Positions 1,782 through 9,013 of a stretch of DNA of 64,000 nucleotides are shown piece after piece (position 1 is the stretch's first letter; each line of letters opens with the position of its first letter). The notes under the pieces are model-generated. The model ran no database searches. It was not told the origin of the DNA and worked only from the letters and a program-made list of their open reading frames with translations. This DNA comes from Cognatiluteimonas sedimenti. Its GTDB lineage: Bacteria; Pseudomonadota; Gammaproteobacteria; Xanthomonadales; Xanthomonadaceae. A program made the translations under genes and the position numbers. The stretch lies in NCBI RefSeq assembly GCF_022808325.1, contig NZ_JALGCL010000003.1, positions 62,001 to 126,000 of the forward strand. The letters are read 5' to 3'.

Positions 1782-1900
1782 TGTGGGAGCGCCTTCAGGC
1801 GCGAGCTTTTTTCCCGAAACCTGTGCTGCAGATGCCTTCTTGCATGAAGTATCCAGGAGCTCGCGGCTGAAGCCGCTCCCACAAGAAGCCGCTCCCACAA
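1782..1900. repeat. REP doublet (REPIN-like inverted repeat) with a partial third copy
   Basis: Two inverted copies of a ~27-nt REP unit face each other: TGTGGGAGCGCCTTCAGGCG at 1782 and its reverse form around 1856-1883. Each unit is itself a hairpin (GCGCCTTCAGGCGC; GCGGCTGAAGCCGC). A truncated extra copy (GAAGCCGCTCCCACAA) follows directly at about 1885-1900. The element lies between two convergent genes. The same unit recurs at 8934-9013. The arrangement fits the non-autonomous REPIN elements mobilised by RAYT transposases in Xanthomonadaceae and Pseudomonas; no RAYT gene is visible in this window. Confidence 0.85.
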
Positions 1901-1910
1901 ATGGATCGCC

Positions 1911-3152
1911 TCACTCCCGCGGCCAGACCTTGCGGTTGGGGTCGAACTCGGAGGTCGTCATGGTCGCGGCGCGCTGGCCGAAGCCGCACACCACGATCGG
2001 ACTCTGCGCGTAGCCGACCACGCCGAACGCGCGCTCGATGTCGACCTCGTTGATGGCGCCGGTCACGAATGGCCCCAACCCGGCCTGGGTGGCGCACAGC
2101 TGCAGGGTCTGCGACAGGTGGCCGACATCCAGCACCGCCACCCGGTAGGCCTTGGCGTGGTTGCGGTACTTCCAGAAATTGCGATGGAAGCGCGGCGCGA
2201 GGATGCACAGCACCGGTGCGTCGGCGAAGAAGTCCTGCCCGGCCACCGCGATCCGGGCGAAGGCGCGCAGTTCAGCCGGGGTCCATGCGCGCGATCCCGC
2301 ATCGCCCGGGACCTGCGTGCCGGCGTCACCGGGTTGCGGCGCCGCGATGCCTGGCGTGACCGGCTCCAGCGCATGCGTGTCGATGCGATAGCGGTACAAG
2401 CCGGGCGCGATGCCATCCACGCGCTGCAGGATCAGCCAGCATTCGGTGGGATGCAGCGCGCCGCCGGACGGGCTGGTGCGCTTGTATACGTCGAAGCCGG
2501 GTGCCGGATGGCCGATCCCGCGGGCGCCGAACACCCGCGCCAGCAGCTGCGAGAACGTCGCCAGCGGCACGCTGGCGGTGGTGTCGTAGTTGCGGCAGGT
2601 GGCGCGGGTATCGAGCAGCGCGTCGAAGTCGTCGCGCTCGATCCGCGGCAAGGCGAGGTCGGCAGCCGGATTCGCCGCTGGCAACGCGTGTGGCGGCGGC
2701 GCGCCGTGCTGGCGCAGCAGGCCTTCGTTCGTGTCGAGATCCTGCTCGGCCATGCCCCTGGGCCCGTCGATGCCTTCCCAGCGCGCGGCCATGTGCGCCA
2801 CTGCCGCCGGCGGGTGCCAGCCCTGGGAGCGGAACCGCGCATCGGCCAGCGCGGATTCATCGCCGTCGTCCGGCCGTGCCAGCAGCAGGCCGGCAGCGAG
2901 CAGGGCATCGACCGCCTCGCTGCCGAAGCGCGCATCGAGCGCGTCGCGCGCGATCCAGTCCACCGCACCCAGCGCGCCCAGCAGCGGGGCATGCGCCGCG
3001 TCCACCTGCACAGGAGCCGGCAGATGCGGGGCATGCGCGAACCAGCACAACCGGCCAACCACCCCGGTGCCGCCCGACAACAGGTCGTCGAGCTCGAAAT
3101 CCGCCACCTCGCGTGGCTCCAGCCACGCCACCGCGCAGCGCCTGATCCGCAT
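1911..3152 (-). CDS. SagB-type nitroreductase-fold dehydrogenase, putative peptide-maturation enzyme
   Basis: A 413-residue protein whose C-terminal two thirds is an FMN-dependent nitroreductase/SagB-type domain, with RATCRNYD, SPSGGALHPTE and, near the end, LDVGHLSQTLQLCATQAGLGP. In azole-forming RiPP systems SagB/ThcOx enzymes oxidise azolines to azoles. I match this protein from memory to the subfamily called putative peptide maturation dehydrogenase, found in Xanthomonads beside NHLP-related precursors and a cyclase-domain protein, all three of which are here. The N-terminal ~170 residues are not nitroreductase; they hold a helix-rich stretch (DARFGSEAVDALLAAGLLLARP) that could be a winged-helix, precursor-binding domain (inference). 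The start at 3152 has a good AGGGGAG ribosome site; the longer open frame upstream has none. It diverges from the precursor gene 64 bp away. The natural reaction is unknown. Confidence 0.82.
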   Translation of the reverse strand: MRIRRCAVAWLEPREVADFELDDLLSGGTGVVGRLCWFAHAPHLPAPVQVDAAHAPLLGALGAVDWIARDALDARFGSEAVDALLAAGLLLARPDDGDESALADARFRSQGWHPPAAVAHMAARWEGIDGPRGMAEQDLDTNEGLLRQHGAPPPHALPAANPAADLALPRIERDDFDALLDTRATCRNYDTTASVPLATFSQLLARVFGARGIGHPAPGFDVYKRTSPSGGALHPTECWLILQRVDGIAPGLYRYRIDTHALEPVTPGIAAPQPGDAGTQVPGDAGSRAWTPAELRAFARIAVAGQDFFADAPVLCILAPRFHRNFWKYRNHAKAYRVAVLDVGHLSQTLQLCATQAGLGPFVTGAINEVDIERAFGVVGYAQSPIVVCGFGQRAATMTTSEFDPNRKVWPRE

Positions 3153-3173
3153 GCCCGCTCCCCTGTTCCGATG

Positions 3174-3216
3174 CGGTGCTATTGTCCGGCTTCCATCCAC
3201 CAAGGGGGAATACCAG
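3174..3216 (+). promoter_or_regulatory. Extended -10 promoter and ribosome site of the precursor peptide gene
   Basis: CGGTGCTATT at 3174-3183 contains a TGnTATTnT extended -10 box (TG at 3177, TATTGT at 3180-3185) with no good -35. AAGGGGG at about 3202-3208 is the ribosome site, seven to nine bases before ATG 3217. The same ten bases occur at nearly the same distance before the GGDEF gene of this locus (7266-7275, minus strand). The promoter call is inference from sequence. Confidence 0.45.
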
Positions 3217-3504
3217 ATGGCACAGGAAGACACGATCCCGCCGGCCGGCTTGCATCCGCGTCTGGTCCGCAAGTTGCTGGACAACCTCGAAAGCAACGAG
3301 GAGTTCCGCGCGATGTTCCAGGAATCGCCGGAGAAGGCGTTGCGTTCGATCGGCTACACCGATCCGTGGGGCTGCATGTCGCTGCGCTCGGGCGCGAAGC
3401 TGGCGTCGCCGGCGCAGATCCGGGCGCAACGCAACAAGCTGGAAGACACGATGGTGGGCATCCAGGGCTACCTGTGCCCGCTGGAGGCACAAGAGGGGCT
3501 GTGA
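3217..3504 (+). CDS. NHLP-related RiPP precursor peptide
   Basis: A 95-residue peptide, start set by a strong ribosome site. The N-terminal half reads LHPRLVRKLLDNLESNEEFRAMFQESPEKALRSIGY, a helical leader of the Nif11/nitrile-hydratase-leader type (pattern F-x3-F-x2-sPekAL-x-siGy). The C-terminal half has a WGCM segment, then GAKLASPAQIRAQRNKLEDT and an end with GYLCPLEAQEGL. There are two cysteines, one after the leader (WGC) and one nine residues from the end (YLC). There is no Gly-Gly cleavage site. I match it from memory to the putative modified peptide family that travels with the SagB-like dehydrogenase and cyclase beside it. It is transcribed away from the dehydrogenase and converges on the cyclase. 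Which residues are modified, and whether a core is released, cannot be told. Confidence 0.8.
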   Translation: MAQEDTIPPAGLHPRLVRKLLDNLESNEEFRAMFQESPEKALRSIGYTDPWGCMSLRSGAKLASPAQIRAQRNKLEDTMVGIQGYLCPLEAQEGL

Positions 3505-3570
3505 GGCGCCGCTTTCCGACTGGATCCCGTTCGCGCGGCTGATCTGCCGGCGTCGATCCCTGCAGCACCG

Positions 3571-3594
3571 CGGGAAGGCGATTACGCCTTCCCG
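3571..3594. terminator. Hairpin between convergent precursor and cyclase genes
   Basis: A perfect 10-bp stem (CGGGAAGGCG / CGCCTTCCCG) with a four-base loop ATTA. The loop contains the TAA stop of the cyclase gene read on the minus strand, and the hairpin lies 66 bp after the precursor stop. There is no clear U tract on either side, so a role as a bidirectional transcript end or stability element is an inference. Confidence 0.45.
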
Positions 3595-6179
3595 ACCTTT
3601 GCCGTCTCTTGCGGCTGCGCCGGCGCCTGCGACTTCGCGTCCTGCTGCAAGGCTTCCGCGGATGCCGCGGCATTGAGGAAGCGCAGCACATCGGTCGTGG
3701 TGCTTTCGACGAACACGCGGCCGCGATGCGTCGCCAGCCAATCTCGCTGCGCGCGCGCGCCCGTGGCGTTGCCGGCGGCCAGCTCTGCACGCATCAGCGA
3801 CCAGTGCGCCGCGACCAGGGCCGTTTCGCGCGCCACCAGCGGACGCAACCTGGCCACGGCCGCCTGCGGCTTGCCGGCGAGCCGTTCCTGCTCGGCCAGC
3901 AACACCTGCTGCAGTTGCGCCACGGTCGGGTAGTCGCGGATGACGCGGCTGTCCCGGGTTTGGCGCAACGCGTCGGCCACGCCCGCCGCATCATCCATCC
4001 GCGCCGCAAGCACGCCGGCGTAGAGCCGCACTTCGGTCGCCGCTGCGGGGTAGAGGGCATCGGCAGCCGCTCCCTTCGCCTGCACGGCGGCCAGCAATTC
4101 CTGCAAGCGACGCCCGGCCTCGGCTTGCCCTGCGAAGACCGCCACGCTGGCGACCGCGACGCGGGCGCGCAAGCTTTCGGGGGCGTCGCCGGCTGCGTCG
4201 GCCTGCCGCAACCAGTCCTGTGCGGCAGTGGCCGCACGCGGCCATTGCCCGCGATCGATCCCGGTGACCACCGCGGCCTCGCCCTGCCAGCCGCCACGCC
4301 CGTTGGTCCCGGTCAGGTAGGCCTTGTCCGCCTGCGCATGCTGGCCGCGCGCATCGAAGAGCCGCGCGTACATTTCGCTCGACCCCGTGAATCCCGCCTT
4401 GCGCGAGCGCTCGAATTCGGCCATCGCCTGGTCGTAGCGCTCCTGGCCCAGCAGCATCATGCCGAGGCTATAGCGGGCCGAATCGCCGCGCTCGTATTGC
4501 GGCTTGATGCTGCGCCGGAACGTCGCCTCGGCCAGGCGGAAATCGTTGAGCTGGTGCCACTGGTTGGTGCCCAGGCGCGCAAGCAGGCGATAATCGTCGG
4601 GATACAGCGCCAGGTATTCCTGCGCCTTGCGGAAATAGATTCCCGGCCCGTCGTTCTGCATCTGCAACAGCTCCAGGCGCGCGCGCTCCTGCGGCGACAG
4701 GCGCTGCGGGATGGCCAGCGCCTTGCGCCGCTCTTCGGCGGCCGGTCCGAGTTCGCCGAGCCCCGAGTACAGGTCGGCCATGTCCGCATGCGCCAGCGCG
4801 AATTCAGGGTCCAGTTGCAGCGCGCGCCGGTACAGGCCCAGTGCCTGCTCGCGGTCGCGCGTGGTGTTGAACACGTTGCGCGCCACCGCGAACGCCTTCA
4901 GCGCGTCCAGGCTGGGCGTGGCTACGTTGGGCAGCGCCACGGACGTCTTCTGCACGCTCTCCAGCGCTTCGCCCAGCTTCTCGCGCAGCTGGTCGGTGAC
5001 GTCGTCGATCGAGGCCAGCGCCGAACCAATGCCGCGGCCATCCGCCGAGACCGCATACACCGTGGTCTGGGTACGCGGGTCGATCACTTCCGCGCTGACC
5101 CGCAGCCGACCGCCGACCTCGGCCACCGTGGGCAGCAGCAGCGCGCGGGCGCCGTCGCGCAACGCGATCTCCGAGCCGATGGCGCGGTCCACCGGCACGC
5201 CCGGCTTGCGCTGCATGTTGCCCAGGGTCTCGCGCACCTTGAGGTCGCTGAGCACGTTGACGTAGCGCGACTGCGCCAGGCTCAGGCGGAAGGCCTGGTC
5301 CAGGGTGTCGTCCAGCAGCTTGTCGCCGGTGAGGTTGCGCAGGTCGCCGACCACCACCCAGTCGCGTTCGCCGAAGGCGATCGCCGGCTGTGGCCGGGTC
5401 AGGAACCAGCCACCGCCCACCAGCCCCGCCACCAGCAGCAACTCCGCGGCCAGCGCCGCGGGCTGTCGCCACAGCGGGATGTCGCGCCAGGCCTTGGCGC
5501 GGTTCTGCTGCGGGGCGTGCAGCGGGGCGATGCCGGGCTCGCCGACCTCGTAGATTTCCTGCGCCTGCGGCACGCCCTTGAAGCGCCAGCGTCCCCAGTG
5601 TTTCCACAACAGCTGTTCGCCGCGCTCGCCGAGTTCGCGCGCCGCGCGGTGTGCCAGCGGCTCAGCCGTGGCCGAGAGCAGGATCTGCCCGGGCCGCGCC
5701 AGCGTCATCAGCCTGCCAGCCATCGGCTTGGCCAGGCCTTCGACTTCCAGCGGCTTGGCGCCGACGTTGACCGCTTCGTCGCTGTTGCGCCAGGTCAGCA
5801 CTTCGCCGACGTGCAGGCCGGCGCGCGCCTGCATCACCACGCCGTGGCGCTTGAGTTCCGTGCGATCGCCGAGATCGCGCAGGCCGCGGGCGTAATCCAG
5901 GGCGAAGCCGAGGCCGTCAATGGCACGCTCGAACAGCAGCAGCAGGCCGTCGGATCGGTCGATCAGGCGGCCGTGCCAGCGCTGCTGCAGCTCCAGCACC
6001 AGGCGGTCGTGGGCGCGGAATAGTTCCGCAGCGGCGTTGTCGCCGAGTTTCTCGACCAGGCTGGTCGAGTCGCACAGGTCGGTCAGCAGCAGGGTGCGCA
6101 CCTGCGGCGTGGCCAACGGTGCTGGCGCGGTTGCGCTGGCTGGATCGGCTCGGTCGATGCTGTCGTTGGCGGCGTGCAT
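3582..6179 (-). CDS. Putative peptide-modification-system cyclase (class III cyclase + TM + TolB-like + TPR)
   Basis: An 865-residue membrane protein. Residues ~25-210 form a class III adenylate/guanylate cyclase homology domain: LLTDLCDST (metal Asp34), DRSDGLL (Asp77), LHVGEV and EAVNVGAK (Asn138) match the usual positions, although the loop is shorter than in classical enzymes. A single TM helix lies at about 241-260, then a TolB-N/FlgO-like region (VVVGDLRNLTGDKLLDD...) and a long TPR-like helical array (~430-840). This layout matches what I recall as the 'putative peptide modification system cyclase' family, which occurs with the precursor and dehydrogenase found just downstream. It sits 22 bp after the GGDEF gene, probably one transcript. 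Whether it makes cAMP or cGMP, or only binds nucleotide, is not known. Confidence 0.8.
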   Translation of the reverse strand: MHAANDSIDRADPASATAPAPLATPQVRTLLLTDLCDSTSLVEKLGDNAAAELFRAHDRLVLELQQRWHGRLIDRSDGLLLLFERAIDGLGFALDYARGLRDLGDRTELKRHGVVMQARAGLHVGEVLTWRNSDEAVNVGAKPLEVEGLAKPMAGRLMTLARPGQILLSATAEPLAHRAARELGERGEQLLWKHWGRWRFKGVPQAQEIYEVGEPGIAPLHAPQQNRAKAWRDIPLWRQPAALAAELLLVAGLVGGGWFLTRPQPAIAFGERDWVVVGDLRNLTGDKLLDDTLDQAFRLSLAQSRYVNVLSDLKVRETLGNMQRKPGVPVDRAIGSEIALRDGARALLLPTVAEVGGRLRVSAEVIDPRTQTTVYAVSADGRGIGSALASIDDVTDQLREKLGEALESVQKTSVALPNVATPSLDALKAFAVARNVFNTTRDREQALGLYRRALQLDPEFALAHADMADLYSGLGELGPAAEERRKALAIPQRLSPQERARLELLQMQNDGPGIYFRKAQEYLALYPDDYRLLARLGTNQWHQLNDFRLAEATFRRSIKPQYERGDSARYSLGMMLLGQERYDQAMAEFERSRKAGFTGSSEMYARLFDARGQHAQADKAYLTGTNGRGGWQGEAAVVTGIDRGQWPRAATAAQDWLRQADAAGDAPESLRARVAVASVAVFAGQAEAGRRLQELLAAVQAKGAAADALYPAAATEVRLYAGVLAARMDDAAGVADALRQTRDSRVIRDYPTVAQLQQVLLAEQERLAGKPQAAVARLRPLVARETALVAAHWSLMRAELAAGNATGARAQRDWLATHRGRVFVESTTTDVLRFLNAAASAEALQQDAKSQAPAQPQETAKVGKA

Positions 6180-6201
6180 GGCGGTGGCGGGACCTGCTCG
6201 C

Positions 6202-7233
6202 CTAGACCGGCGCGAGCGCGTCGTCCTGCCATTCGACGCGGTTGCCGCCCAACCGCTTGGCCCGGTACAGCGCGGCGTCGGCGTTGGCGTACCAGTCCTC
6301 CCAGCGCTGGTCCAGCGCCACCGGGCAGGCGCCGATGCTGAGGGTGGCGATCTGCGGCGGCGAGGACTGCAGTTTGTGCAGCGCCTGCGCGGTGTCGATC
6401 ACGAACTGGGCGATGCGCAGGATCCCGGCGCGATGCTCAGCGCCGACCAGCAGGCAGAACTCGTCGCCGCCGAGGCGGCAGGCGATGTCGCCCGGGCCGG
6501 CGGCCGAGCGCAGGATGTTGGCCACGCCCTGCAGCACGCGGTCGCCGACCTGGTGGCCGTGCTCGTCGTTGATGCCCTTGAAACTGTCGCAGTCCAGCAG
6601 CAGCAGGCCGCAGCCGCCGAGGGCGTCGTTGCGGCGGCGCTGCTCGAGTTGCAGCTGGAAGCCGCGGCGGTTGTTGAGCCCGGTGAGCTCGTCGGTGCGG
6701 GTCAGCGCCTCGGTCTGGTTGAGGCGGTGGGTGGTGGCGCGCAGGGTGTCCAGCGCGGACTGCAGGTCGGCGTTGCGGCGGCGCAGGCGCGCGATCAGGC
6801 TCTGTTCGTTGAGCACCACGCGGGCGATGGCGCGGCGCAGGAAATGCGCGAGCAGGGCCGGGTCGCGCGCGGCCAGCGGCTCGAATTCCTCCTGCCGCAG
6901 TTCCAGCAGCACCGCGCTGCTGGCGGCGACGGCGTCGGCGCTGCGCGCGTGGTCGCCGATCAGCAGGCCGAGTTCGCCGAAGAACTGGTGCCGGCCCAAG
7001 CGCTTGGGGACGAGGTCGTCGCCGAAGTCCAGGTCGATGTCGCCCTGCACGATCACGTACATGGTGGTGCCGAGGTCGCCGCGGCGGAACAGGGCTTCGC
7101 CGGCCGCCACCAGTCGCGGGCGCCCGACTTTCTCGAACAGCGCGTACTCCTCCGCGGTCAGCGCGGCGGCGGACTGCTCCATCCCGGTCTCCGGCGGGCG
7201 GGCTGGTGCCAGCCCCGCGACGTCTGCACTCAT
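6202..7233 (-). CDS. Diguanylate cyclase with N-terminal cyclic-nucleotide-binding domain
   Basis: A 343-residue cytoplasmic signalling protein. Residues ~20-135 are a CRP-like cyclic-nucleotide-binding domain (LFRRGDLGTTMYVIVQGDIDL, FFGELGLLIGDHARSADAVA), followed by a short linking helix and a GGDEF domain (~185-343) with an intact RLGGDEF active site and DELTGLNNRR. No RxxD inhibitory site is seen five residues before GGDEF, so product inhibition through an I-site is unlikely. The expected reaction is 2 GTP to c-di-GMP, gated by a cyclic nucleotide. Start at 7233 has an AGGGGG ribosome site. It is immediately upstream of the cyclase-domain protein, so that protein could supply the ligand; this is inference from position. 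Confidence 0.88.
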   Translation of the reverse strand: MSADVAGLAPARPPETGMEQSAAALTAEEYALFEKVGRPRLVAAGEALFRRGDLGTTMYVIVQGDIDLDFGDDLVPKRLGRHQFFGELGLLIGDHARSADAVAASSAVLLELRQEEFEPLAARDPALLAHFLRRAIARVVLNEQSLIARLRRRNADLQSALDTLRATTHRLNQTEALTRTDELTGLNNRRGFQLQLEQRRRNDALGGCGLLLLDCDSFKGINDEHGHQVGDRVLQGVANILRSAAGPGDIACRLGGDEFCLLVGAEHRAGILRIAQFVIDTAQALHKLQSSPPQIATLSIGACPVALDQRWEDWYANADAALYRAKRLGGNRVEWQDDALAPV

Positions 7234-7560: not shown

Positions 7561-8880
7561 TCAGGCAGCGACGGCCTCGACCTGGTGCTGGAACTGCTCT
7601 TCTTCCGTGGACCCTTTCAGCGCCACCGTCGACGACTGCGCGCCCTGGATGGTCTGCGTCACCGCGTCGAAATAACCGGTGCCGACCTCGCGCTGGTGCT
7701 TGACCGCGGTGAAACCCTGCGACGCCGCGGCGAATTCCGCCTGCTGCAGCTCCACGAACGCGCTCATCTGCCGGCGCGCATAACCGTGCGCGAGCTGGAA
7801 CATCGAGTGATTGAGCGCGTGGAAGCCGGCCAGGGTGATGAACTGGAACTTGTAGCCCATCGCCGCGAGTTCCTGCTGGAAGCCGGCGATGGTGGCGTCG
7901 TCCAGGTGCTGCTTCCAGTTGAAGCTGGGCGAACAGTTGTAGGCCAGCAGCTTGCCGGGGTACCTGGCATGGATCGCGGCGGCGAACTGGCGCGCGAAGG
8001 CCAGGTCCGGCTTGCCGGTCTCGCACCAGACCAGGTCCGCGTACGGCGCGTACGCCAGGCCGCGGCTGATCGCCTGCCCCAGGCCCTTGCGGGTCTTGTG
8101 GAAGCCCTCGACGGTGCGCTCGCCGGTGCAGAACGGCTGGTCGTTGGCGTCGATGTCGCTGGTCAGCAGGTCGGCGGCCTCGGCGTCGGTGCGGGCGACG
8201 ATCAGCGTCGGTACGCCCATCACGTCGGCGGCAAGGCGCGCGGCGACCAGTTTCTCCACCGCCTCGCGGGTGGGCACGAGCACCTTGCCGCCCATGTGCC
8301 CGCATTTCTTGGCGCTGGCCAGCTGGTCCTCGAAATGCACGCCGGCCGCGCCGGCCTCGATCATCGCCTTCATCAGCTCGAAGGCGTTGAGCACGCCACC
8401 GAACCCGGCCTCGGCATCGGCGACGATCGGCTGCAGGAAGTCGATGCGGTCGCAGCGCTCGTCCTCGCCGCGCTCGGCATGGTGCAGCTGGTCGGCGCGC
8501 AGCAGGGTGTTGTTGATGCGCTTGACCACCTGCGGCACCGAGTTGGCCGGGTACAGCGACTGGTCCGGGTACATCTCGCCGGCGCCGTTGGCGTCGGCGG
8601 CGACCTGCCAGCCGGAGAGATAAATGGCTTTCAATCCGGCCTTGACCTGCTGCATCGCCTGGTTGCCGGTCAGCGCGCCAAGCGCGTTGACGAAGGGCTC
8701 GCGGTGCAGCGAGGTCCACAACTTGCCGGCGCCCAGTTTCGCCAGGGAATGCTCGACCGCGACGGTGCCGCGCAGGCGCACCACGTCGGCCGGCGAGTAC
8801 GGGCGGGCGATCCCGGCCCAGCGCGGGTTGTGGCTCCAGTCGTGTGCGATCTGTTCGGCGGTGGGCAGTTGAGTTTTCAT
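7561..8880 (-). CDS. aceA: Isocitrate lyase
   Basis: Splits isocitrate into succinate and glyoxylate, the first step of the glyoxylate shunt that allows growth on acetate and fatty acids. The 439-residue length and the sequence agree with the short (about 430-440 residue) bacterial form. The catalytic loop [23 protein letters not shown] and YNCSPSFNW are all present. The start is ATG 8880; a TTG directly before it is unlikely to be used. It lies downstream of aceB on the same strand, separated by a REP doublet, which may alter the ratio of the two messages. Confidence 0.97.
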
Positions 8881-8933: not shown

Positions 8934-9013
8934 TGTGGGAGCGGCTTCAGCCGCGAGCTTTTTGCTGGTGGTGGGCGATGCGGGAAAAGCTCGCGGCTGA
9001 AGCCGCTCCCACA
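8934..9013. repeat. REP doublet (REPIN-like) between aceB and aceA
   Basis: Two exact inverted copies of TGTGGGAGCGGCTTCAGCCG plus CGAGCTT (8934-8960 and 8987-9013) separated by 26 nt. Each copy can fold on itself (GCGGCTTCAGCCGC) and the pair can form a long cruciform. The unit is the same as in the doublet at 1782-1900. It is transcribed between two metabolic genes and could act as an mRNA 3'-stabiliser for aceB, which is an inference. Confidence 0.88.

Follow-up and report, generated by a model that had tools for sequence, protein, structure and literature searches.

Co-inheritance and block exchange of an NHLP-type peptide, a flavin oxidase and a receptor-like guanylate cyclase: a candidate peptide input to the Xanthomonas-type cGMP/c-di-GMP pathway

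Introduction

A stretch of 64,000 nucleotides from Cognatiluteimonas sedimenti (contig NZ_JALGCL010000003.1, C3:62001-126000; "the window" below means this whole stretch) encodes four neighbouring proteins: a SagB-type flavin oxidase, a small NHLP-type precursor of a ribosomally synthesized and post-translationally modified peptide (RiPP), a membrane-bound class III cyclase-domain protein with tetratricopeptide repeats (TPR), and a GGDEF protein with a cyclic nucleotide monophosphate (cNMP) binding domain. An initial annotation had read them as an uncharacterised peptide-maturation set of Xanthomonads, with no YcaO cyclodehydratase in the window and with second messengers coupled to the peptide. 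The question raised by this locus is what a peptide oxidase of the azole type does beside a cyclase and a diguanylate cyclase when no azoline maker is encoded nearby. The answer proposed here is that the oxidised peptide is, rather probably, a variant-specific ligand of a receptor guanylate cyclase; the evidence comes from the co-inheritance of the four genes and from the exchange of peptide, sensor and oxidase parts as a block between close relatives.

Identity and co-inheritance of the four genes

All four genes were recovered where they had first been annotated (Table 1). The oxidase scored 464.9 bits against TIGR04511 (cut-off 240) and 102.4 bits against TIGR03605 (cut-off 78.4), the precursor 48.4 bits against TIGR04509 (cut-off 34) and the cyclase 923.3 bits against TIGR04510 (cut-off 400). 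The comparison with TIGR04509/04510/04511 proposed in the initial annotation thus placed all three proteins, encoded side by side, over the curated cut-offs, while NF038399, the other NHLP-clan model listed for the precursor, reached 23.6 bits and stayed below its cut-off of 40. NCBIfam names this set only as putative, and its model names contain neither the GGDEF partner nor the YcaO-free genomes nor the cassette exchange, all of which are added here. In the literature searched (subscription papers outside the scope), the three model numbers were mentioned in no full-text paper.

Co-occurrence was surveyed in 297 genomes of the window's family, with counts uncorrected for relatedness. The precursor was detected in 185 genomes, the oxidase in 189 (182 over the cut-off), the cyclase in 188 at E<1e-40 (184 over the cut-off) and a GGDEF relative in 185 at E<=1e-40. 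All four genes were found together in 177 genomes, and none of the four in 98. Every one of the 185 precursor genomes carried the oxidase, which occurred without the precursor in 4 more, and the precursor and the cyclase co-occurred in 184, with 4 genomes having a cyclase but no precursor and 1 the reverse; eight precursor genomes had no GGDEF gene. The co-occurrence of precursor, oxidase and cyclase is far above chance, and the lack of co-conservation that the initial annotation named as refuting its reading was not seen. The GGDEF gene, correctly described there as attached to the cyclase, is a fourth regular member of the set, which is a new observation.

The arrangement of the genes was compared in 141 loci, namely the window and 140 fetched loci, a non-random sample of the best-scoring matches listed, to which L082 was added since it has no precursor and no oxidase. 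The order GGDEF-cyclase-precursor (reverse)-oxidase was present in 103 of these loci, and the rest varied, some with several precursors or oxidases. Precursor relatives were found in 140 of the 141 loci, and GGDEF relatives of at least 200 bits in 130 (any match in 133). The gap between the GGDEF gene and the cyclase gene had a median of 23 bp (130 loci), and the 3' ends of precursor and cyclase abut (median 3 bp, 118 loci).

The cyclase and the GGDEF protein as members of the XC_0250/XC_0249 family

The sections covered of the published work on Xanthomonas campestris report that XC_0250 synthesizes cyclic GMP (cGMP) and that XC_0249 binds cGMP and then makes more cyclic di-GMP (c-di-GMP); mutants showed reduced biofilm and virulence, and the cyclase affects many Xanthomonas genes (PMC3770947). 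The activating signal of the cyclase is not named in those sections, and XC_0251, XC_0252 and words beginning with "peptide" appear nowhere in the main text (PMC3770947).

By alignment, the cyclase of the window has all six XC_0250 residues (D41, D71, L73, A150, L157 and A161). Over 138 aligned cyclases, D71 and A150 were conserved in 138, D41 in 137, A161 in 133, L157 in 116 and L73 in 115. The numbering was anchored on L094 of the genus Xanthomonas (g17), a Met-started cyclase of 886 aa, the published length, with the six residues at their published numbers; among 12 positions fitting the six residue numbers, the start chosen is the one with a Met and 886 aa. The GGDEF protein of the window, with residues placed by their spacing on L094, keeps the cGMP contacts F73, E90, H98, N145 and E146 together with the GGDEF motif. 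Among 130 GGDEF proteins, F73, E90, H98 and E146 were present in all 130, N145 in 119 and the GGDEF motif in all, and the best PDB match of the window's cNMP domain was 5h5o (E 1.7e-41). Judged by these sequences, the two proteins belong to the family of XC_0250 and XC_0249.

A single transmembrane (TM) helix was predicted in 132 of the 138 cyclases, two in 4 and none in 2. The flank on the catalytic side of this helix was the more positive one in 136 of 136 cyclases, and in the window's cyclase this is the N-terminal side. Since one TM helix is combined with a positive catalytic-side flank, the TPR part should face the periplasm.

These assignments change two labels of the initial annotation. 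"Cyclase" holds for a class III cyclase-domain protein, with the meaning of guanylate cyclase and not of peptide cyclase, and "uncharacterised" no longer fits the cyclase and the GGDEF protein, though it still fits the putative peptide modification. The same two families as in the Xanthomonas pathway are present here; the present analysis adds to them a peptide and an oxidase as partners, and an outer domain that is exchanged between relatives. In metazoan peptide-receptor guanylate cyclases, the peptide-sensing part lies outside, followed by one TM helix and a guanylate cyclase inside. The general layout is the same, the domain order and folds differ, and no homology is claimed.

Exchange of peptide, TPR part and oxidase between relatives

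The variation of the precursor core was compared with that of the other parts in 111 of the 141 loci, those with single-copy, full-length genes, by permutations that leave some dependence between relatives. Core distance correlated with the distance of the cyclase TPR part (r 0.63). With GGDEF distance removed, the partial r was 0.56 (p 0.001), and with the oxidase taken out as well it was 0.42 (p 0.002). For the oxidase, the corresponding values were 0.46 after removing GGDEF and 0.25 after also removing TPR, and the catalytic part of the same cyclase showed no such relationship (partial r -0.01). The coupling of the peptide to second messengers suggested in the initial annotation thus gains evolutionary support, as the core co-varies with the TPR part of the cyclase.

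Individual pairs of loci display the limits of this variation. In L096 and L097 (g17), the GGDEF proteins are 97% and the cyclase catalytic parts 100% identical, the TPR parts 32%, the oxidases 44-52%, and the cores are unrelated; L097 and L098 have near-identical cores and TPR parts that are 81% identical. At the DNA level, L096 and L097 share 92-100% through the GGDEF and cyclase catalytic parts (with one dip to 0.71 upstream of the GGDEF gene), fall to 0.65 in the 300-bp interval spanning the drop near the TM codon, stay at 36-58% through TPR, precursor and oxidase, and return to 96% immediately after the end of the oxidase gene. A low-identity block is also seen in L106/L109 and L147/L153. 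It starts within the cyclase (ahead of the TPR part in L106/L109), extends into the oxidase gene and ends beyond the oxidase N-terminal domain, roughly at codons 110-210, with L106/L109 recovering to 0.85 or more. The identity of the oxidase N-terminal domain is accordingly 0.54 and 0.63 in these two pairs, against 0.91 and 0.96 in the catalytic part. The unit exchanged in these pairs is thus the peptide together with those parts that would be expected to contact it. The limits of the block vary between genera.

We then compared 43 pairs of loci from the same genus, with no locus used in more than one pair. The core was the same in 13 pairs and different in 24; the 6 intermediate pairs were left out of the two-group test. 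Same-core pairs differed from different-core pairs in the TPR part (0.78 v 0.41, p 5e-6) and in the oxidase N-terminal domain (0.74 v 0.50, p 2e-4), and also in the middle part of the cyclase, the leader and the oxidase catalytic part. No difference was observed for GGDEF (0.93 v 0.90, p 0.43) or the cyclase catalytic part (0.93 v 0.89, p 0.19). Taken at the level of sequence, these comparisons indicate that close relatives exchange an allelic block made up of the cyclase TPR part, the peptide, and either the oxidase or just its N-terminal domain.

The peptide-signalling loci comQXPA and agr (compare PMC4408185) vary in a comparable way. There, a variable peptide, a variable sensor part of its receptor and a variable modifying enzyme are set on a conserved output; in the present set, the receptor is a guanylate cyclase and not a histidine kinase, the hosts are Gram-negative, and the modifier is a flavin oxidase with an NHLP-type precursor. 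The set resembles pherotypes in that the peptide, the sensor part of the receptor and the modifier change in concert while the output is conserved, with exceptions in g51, g29 and g42.

The precursor and the oxidase

The precursor was analysed in 174 sequences (177 minus two under 70 aa and one duplicate). The mean pairwise identity was 0.46 in the leader helices and 0.17 in the core columns. Helices were predicted at residues 14-26, 28-36, 38-44, 65-70 and 72-81 in a structure model of moderate quality (predicted local distance difference test, pLDDT, 69.8 overall and <50 at residues 1-9 and 84-95). The fold matches were weak (best E 2.3), and the top seven were all RiPP precursors or NHLP-clan proteins (Os1348, SonA, DprE2). 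By its sequence, the small protein carries an NHLP-related leader. The core of the window contains one Cys; within the first 14 core residues, 20 of the 174 family cores have no Cys, Ser or Thr and 118 have no Cys. Since 20 cores have none of the three, these residues are not a constant feature of the family. Core position Y85 of the window is occupied by an unbranched residue in 162 of the 174 relatives. Another position, C53 (window 3373-3375), lies in the loop between the leader helices and the last helix; 163 sequences have a residue at this position, and it is Cys in 132 of them.

The oxidase was modelled by AlphaFold with a mean pLDDT of 94.9, and its best fold matches were ThcOx, BmdC and McbC. 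K328-Y329 was invariant among 68 aligned representatives, and the FWKY motif aligned with that of ThcOx/CyaGox. The N-terminal alignments with ThcOx and BmdC begin at residue 1, with root-mean-square deviations of 11 and ~5, respectively, a comparison that barely tests the residues before 165. The N-terminal part of ThcOx is described as a peptide-clamp fold in the portion covered of PMC5108345, and the N-terminal domain of the window's oxidase, as modelled, probably binds the precursor leader. The window's enzyme shares with the azoline oxidases ThcOx, McbC and BmdC the catalytic fold, the Lys-Tyr motif and, for ThcOx and BmdC, the aligned N-terminal region; it differs from them in that its genome has no azoline maker of the YcaO type and the family cores are often without Cys.

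Indeed, YcaO (PF02624) had 0 matches in the whole genome of the window (2.74 Mb, 99.97% complete). The absence noted for the window in the initial annotation thus extends to the entire genome, no unlinked YcaO gene exists there, and the oxidase works in a genome without an azoline maker of this type. YcaO was found in 20 of the 297 family genomes (18 over the cut-off) and was absent from 168 of the 185 precursor-bearing genomes. Among the features of azole peptides (linear azol(in)e-containing peptides/thiazole/oxazole-modified microcins, LAP/TOMM), the SagB/McbC-type dehydrogenase is present and YcaO is absent.

A flavoenzyme can also act on peptides directly. In the sections of PMC11055893 covered, the cyclodipeptide oxidase AlbAB is a nitroreductase-fold enzyme that dehydrogenates peptide alpha-beta bonds directly; its substrates are cyclic dipeptides, AlbB is a small partner, and flavin mononucleotide (FMN) is bound covalently. 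The flavin fold of the window's oxidase also matches AlbA, so the nitroreductase-type fold is common to both, while the cyclic dipeptide substrate and the covalent FMN belong to AlbAB.

Proposed circuit and alternative explanations

Taken together, the proposal is as follows. The precursor leader would be bound by the oxidase N-terminal domain, and the flavin domain would oxidise the short C-terminal core with no YcaO step, perhaps by direct dehydrogenation. The modified product or core, once exported, would be an allele-specific ligand of the periplasmic TPR part of the one-TM guanylate cyclase, and its binding would set the intracellular cGMP output; cGMP would then be bound by the cNMP domain of the GGDEF protein encoded alongside, which would alter c-di-GMP and thereby biofilm and other behaviour. 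A single polymorphic cassette, consisting of the peptide core, the TPR sensor and either the oxidase or just its N-terminal domain, is exchanged on a conserved chassis. From these patterns we infer leader binding, oxidation and its chemistry, export, the ligand role and the sign of the effect. In its broadest form, the proposal is a possible but tentative new type of peptide communication in bacteria: polymorphic ribosomal peptides oxidised by one YcaO-independent flavoenzyme, possibly with an alpha,beta-unsaturated residue at Y85, might be group-specific ligands of receptor guanylate cyclases and might thus provide, across Lysobacteraceae and Rhodanobacteraceae, the input so far missing from the Xanthomonas cGMP/c-di-GMP pathway.

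A Peptidase_C39-type exporter is usual for the NHLP leader type. Peptidase_C39 (PF03412) had 0 matches in the window's genome, and no exporter was found, other exporter families not having been searched for; this is the first of several observations that weigh against the proposed circuit. A PF03412 match was present in 69 of 119 family genomes. An exporter or protease was likewise not found as a conserved neighbour of the set, in flanks whose clustering was blurred by low-complexity and antisense frames and which were not searched systematically. Since the cyclase domain by itself restored biofilm (PMC3770947, sections covered), the outer part is dispensable for basal output. The GGDEF gene occurs without a precursor in eight of the 297 genomes, and genome G054 (L082), from the window's genus, keeps cyclase and GGDEF with precursor and oxidase undetectable and aceA not over the cut-off. 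With regard to the exchange, the oxidase likewise varies with the core. The middle part of the cyclase is uncorrelated with the core over all pairs (-0.08), yet separates same-core from different-core pairs within genera (0.92 v 0.74). Among the 24 different-core pairs, four, each from g51, retain TPR identities of 0.61-0.66 and have oxidases that follow the core more tightly; four others (g29, g42) have a cyclase catalytic part <0.80 too.

A further observation of this kind comes from outside the family, where the restriction of the set to Xanthomonads assumed in the initial annotation does not hold: Streptomyces and Kribbella carry precursor and oxidase as well. Among 80 named loci, the best of 273 matches, 67 had all four genes, 6 had no GGDEF match and 7 had precursor and oxidase only. 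The last group comprised five Streptomyces loci, one Kribbella locus and L267, which lies at a contig end and presumably belongs to G030, a genome with its cyclase on another contig. The TIGR04510 cyclase was found in 0 of the 6 actinobacterial genomes, and, among frames of at least 90 aa, only precursor, oxidase and frames overlapping them were common to all six loci. Because precursor and oxidase stand without a cyclase in these six actinobacteria, the peptide has some cyclase-independent use. Two or more precursors were present in three of the six loci, and Kribbella antibiotica (L254, 5058-6949) has five tandem precursors beside one oxidase; YcaO was absent from the Kribbella genome and present in the other five. 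A FastTree tree placed the actinobacterial oxidases together with L103, from genus g15 (support 98), which suggests that these pairs derive by transfer from the window's family. TIGR04511 was over the cut-off in 3 of 229 class genomes sampled, all in the window's family, and the match listing also shows Rhodanobacteraceae.

These actinobacterial pairs fit the peptide being an output: cGMP/c-di-GMP signalling would govern the production of an oxidised peptide with an antibiotic-like or kin-discrimination role, while the TPR part would sense the self product for feedback or immunity. The multiple precursors in three of the six loci fit such a use of its own, and polymorphic cassettes are typical of competition systems. 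We consider this unlikely, though a real contender. The cyclase affects many Xanthomonas genes, yet only 4 of the 188 cyclase-bearing genomes have no precursor, and for this reason the peptide is preferred as input over output.

It is also conceivable, though improbable, that the locus is a recombination hot spot in which TPR part, peptide and oxidase are carried along together with no functional match between them. The 3' ends of cyclase and precursor abut, so that adjacency might be enough to explain co-exchange, which again weighs against the proposed circuit; the REP-like inverted repeats that flank the set in the window and the variable block limits point the same way. Against adjacency stand the breakpoints of the pairs profiled: within the cyclase gene they lie near domain borders, and L106/L109 and L147/L153 have a further one in the oxidase gene, past the N-terminal domain. 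Moreover, among 114 different-core pairs with GGDEF at least 0.85 identical, seven (five in g45, two in g15) kept the oxidase catalytic part (at least 0.85) with the TPR part <0.45.

To a third possibility, that the small protein is a structural or regulatory partner of the oxidase, as AlbB is for AlbA, and not a RiPP precursor, we give little credence. The conserved helices, the Cys before the tail and the AlbA-like flavin fold would suit such a partner; the conserved leader with a variable core and a low-confidence tail, the five precursors beside one oxidase in L254, and the fold matches to RiPP precursors or NHLP-clan proteins (weak, E>2) argue for a precursor. That this is an azole peptide of the classical kind, its cyclodehydratase being unlinked or missing, is hardly credible, and this reading was set aside: the oxidase retains the Lys-Tyr motif of azole dehydrogenases and YcaO is slightly commoner with the precursor (17/185 vs 3/112 without, p 0.03), but the genomes of the window and of Kribbella are YcaO-free, YcaO is rare in the family, and the cores are variable and often have no Cys or none of Cys, Ser and Thr.

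Implications of a possible peptide ligand

Within the literature searched, three findings appear to be new, namely that the GGDEF protein belongs to the set, that YcaO is absent and that peptide and receptor part are exchanged as a matched pair, and no paper title or abstract start linked peptide genes with cGMP (subscription papers again outside the scope). The cyclase and effector of the Xanthomonas cGMP branch are known, and a co-inherited, allele-matched peptide is a concrete candidate for the activating input. If the peptide is indeed a ligand of the guanylate cyclase, bacteria possess peptide-receptor guanylate cyclases that resemble the animal ones in function, together with a peptide oxidase that works without an azoline-forming partner. 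The breakpoints point to the parts that would recognise one another, namely peptide core with TPR part and leader with oxidase N-terminal domain. L082, with a cyclase and no peptide of its own, is a natural test case, and L254 of Kribbella antibiotica, with no YcaO match, is a simple system for the chemistry.

Genomic context of the set

The coordinates of the features are given in Table 1. The middle part of the cyclase had no model match in the NCBIfam/Pfam scans, and "TolB-like" is a label of the initial annotation only.

Table 1. Features of the four-gene set and its chromosomal anchor, in window coordinates
Feature	Position	Strand	Basis or remark
SagB-type flavin oxidase, 413 aa, fused N-terminal domain	1911..3152	-	TIGR04511, TIGR03605, Pfam nitroreductase
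Oxidase N-terminal domain, ~residues 1-95	2868..3152	-	part of the exchanged block
NHLP-related RiPP precursor, 95 aa	3217..3504	+	TIGR04509
Precursor variable C-terminal core, residues 82-95, IQGYLCPLEAQEGL	3460..3501	+	core vs leader identity
Receptor-like class III guanylate cyclase, 865 aa: cyclase domain, one TM, middle part, TPR part	3582..6179	-	TIGR04510
Guanylate cyclase catalytic domain, ~residues 25-205, conserved chassis	5565..6107	-	
Cyclase transmembrane helix, ~residues 242-260	5400..5456	-	hydropathy 1.85
Cyclase TPR sensor part (predicted), ~residues 421-840	3660..4919	-	exchanged together with the peptide
cNMP-binding and GGDEF diguanylate cyclase, 343 aa, XC_0249 family	6202..7233	-	Pfam cNMP_binding and GGDEF
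aceA (isocitrate lyase), chromosomal anchor, outside the set	7561..8880	-	NF011645

Across the 141 loci, four named neighbours were counted beside the set: aceA (111), aceB (60), a K/H antiporter (19) and LysR (3). Of 25 genomes in which the set is missing or incomplete, 22 had aceA over the cut-off, the exceptions being G054, G170 and G225. We examined 20 aceA regions from genomes with aceA over the cut-off and no precursor match; none of them contained a cyclase, oxidase or precursor match, and in four (L219, L220, L221 and L225) a strong GGDEF match still stood beside aceA. An empty site was identified in L207 (G108, window's genus) at ~4783-4819, where only ~35 bp, and none of the four genes, separate aceA from the K/H antiporter; in the window these two stand on either side of the set. 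On the basis of these empty aceA regions and the co-occurrence counts, the set is largely gained or lost as one island.

Three minor observations concern the organisation of such loci. L199 and L200 (G022 and G067) contain arrays with several precursors and oxidases around a single cyclase, and both genomes encode YcaO. CRP/Clp-like palindromes (consensus TGTGA-N6-TCACA) were slightly over-represented; those with 9 or 10 of 10 matches were present in 6 of 118 precursor-oxidase intergenic regions, uncorrected for the relatedness of the loci, vs 1 of 590 mononucleotide shuffles, and are perhaps a feedback site. Finally, a REP-like (repetitive extragenic palindromic) element, GTGGGAGCGGCTTCAGCCGCGA, occurs in four copies as two inverted pairs (window 1783-1882 and 8935-9012), with at most 3 mismatches and 0.01 copies expected; these are its sole matches in the window, and they flank the four-gene island together with aceA.

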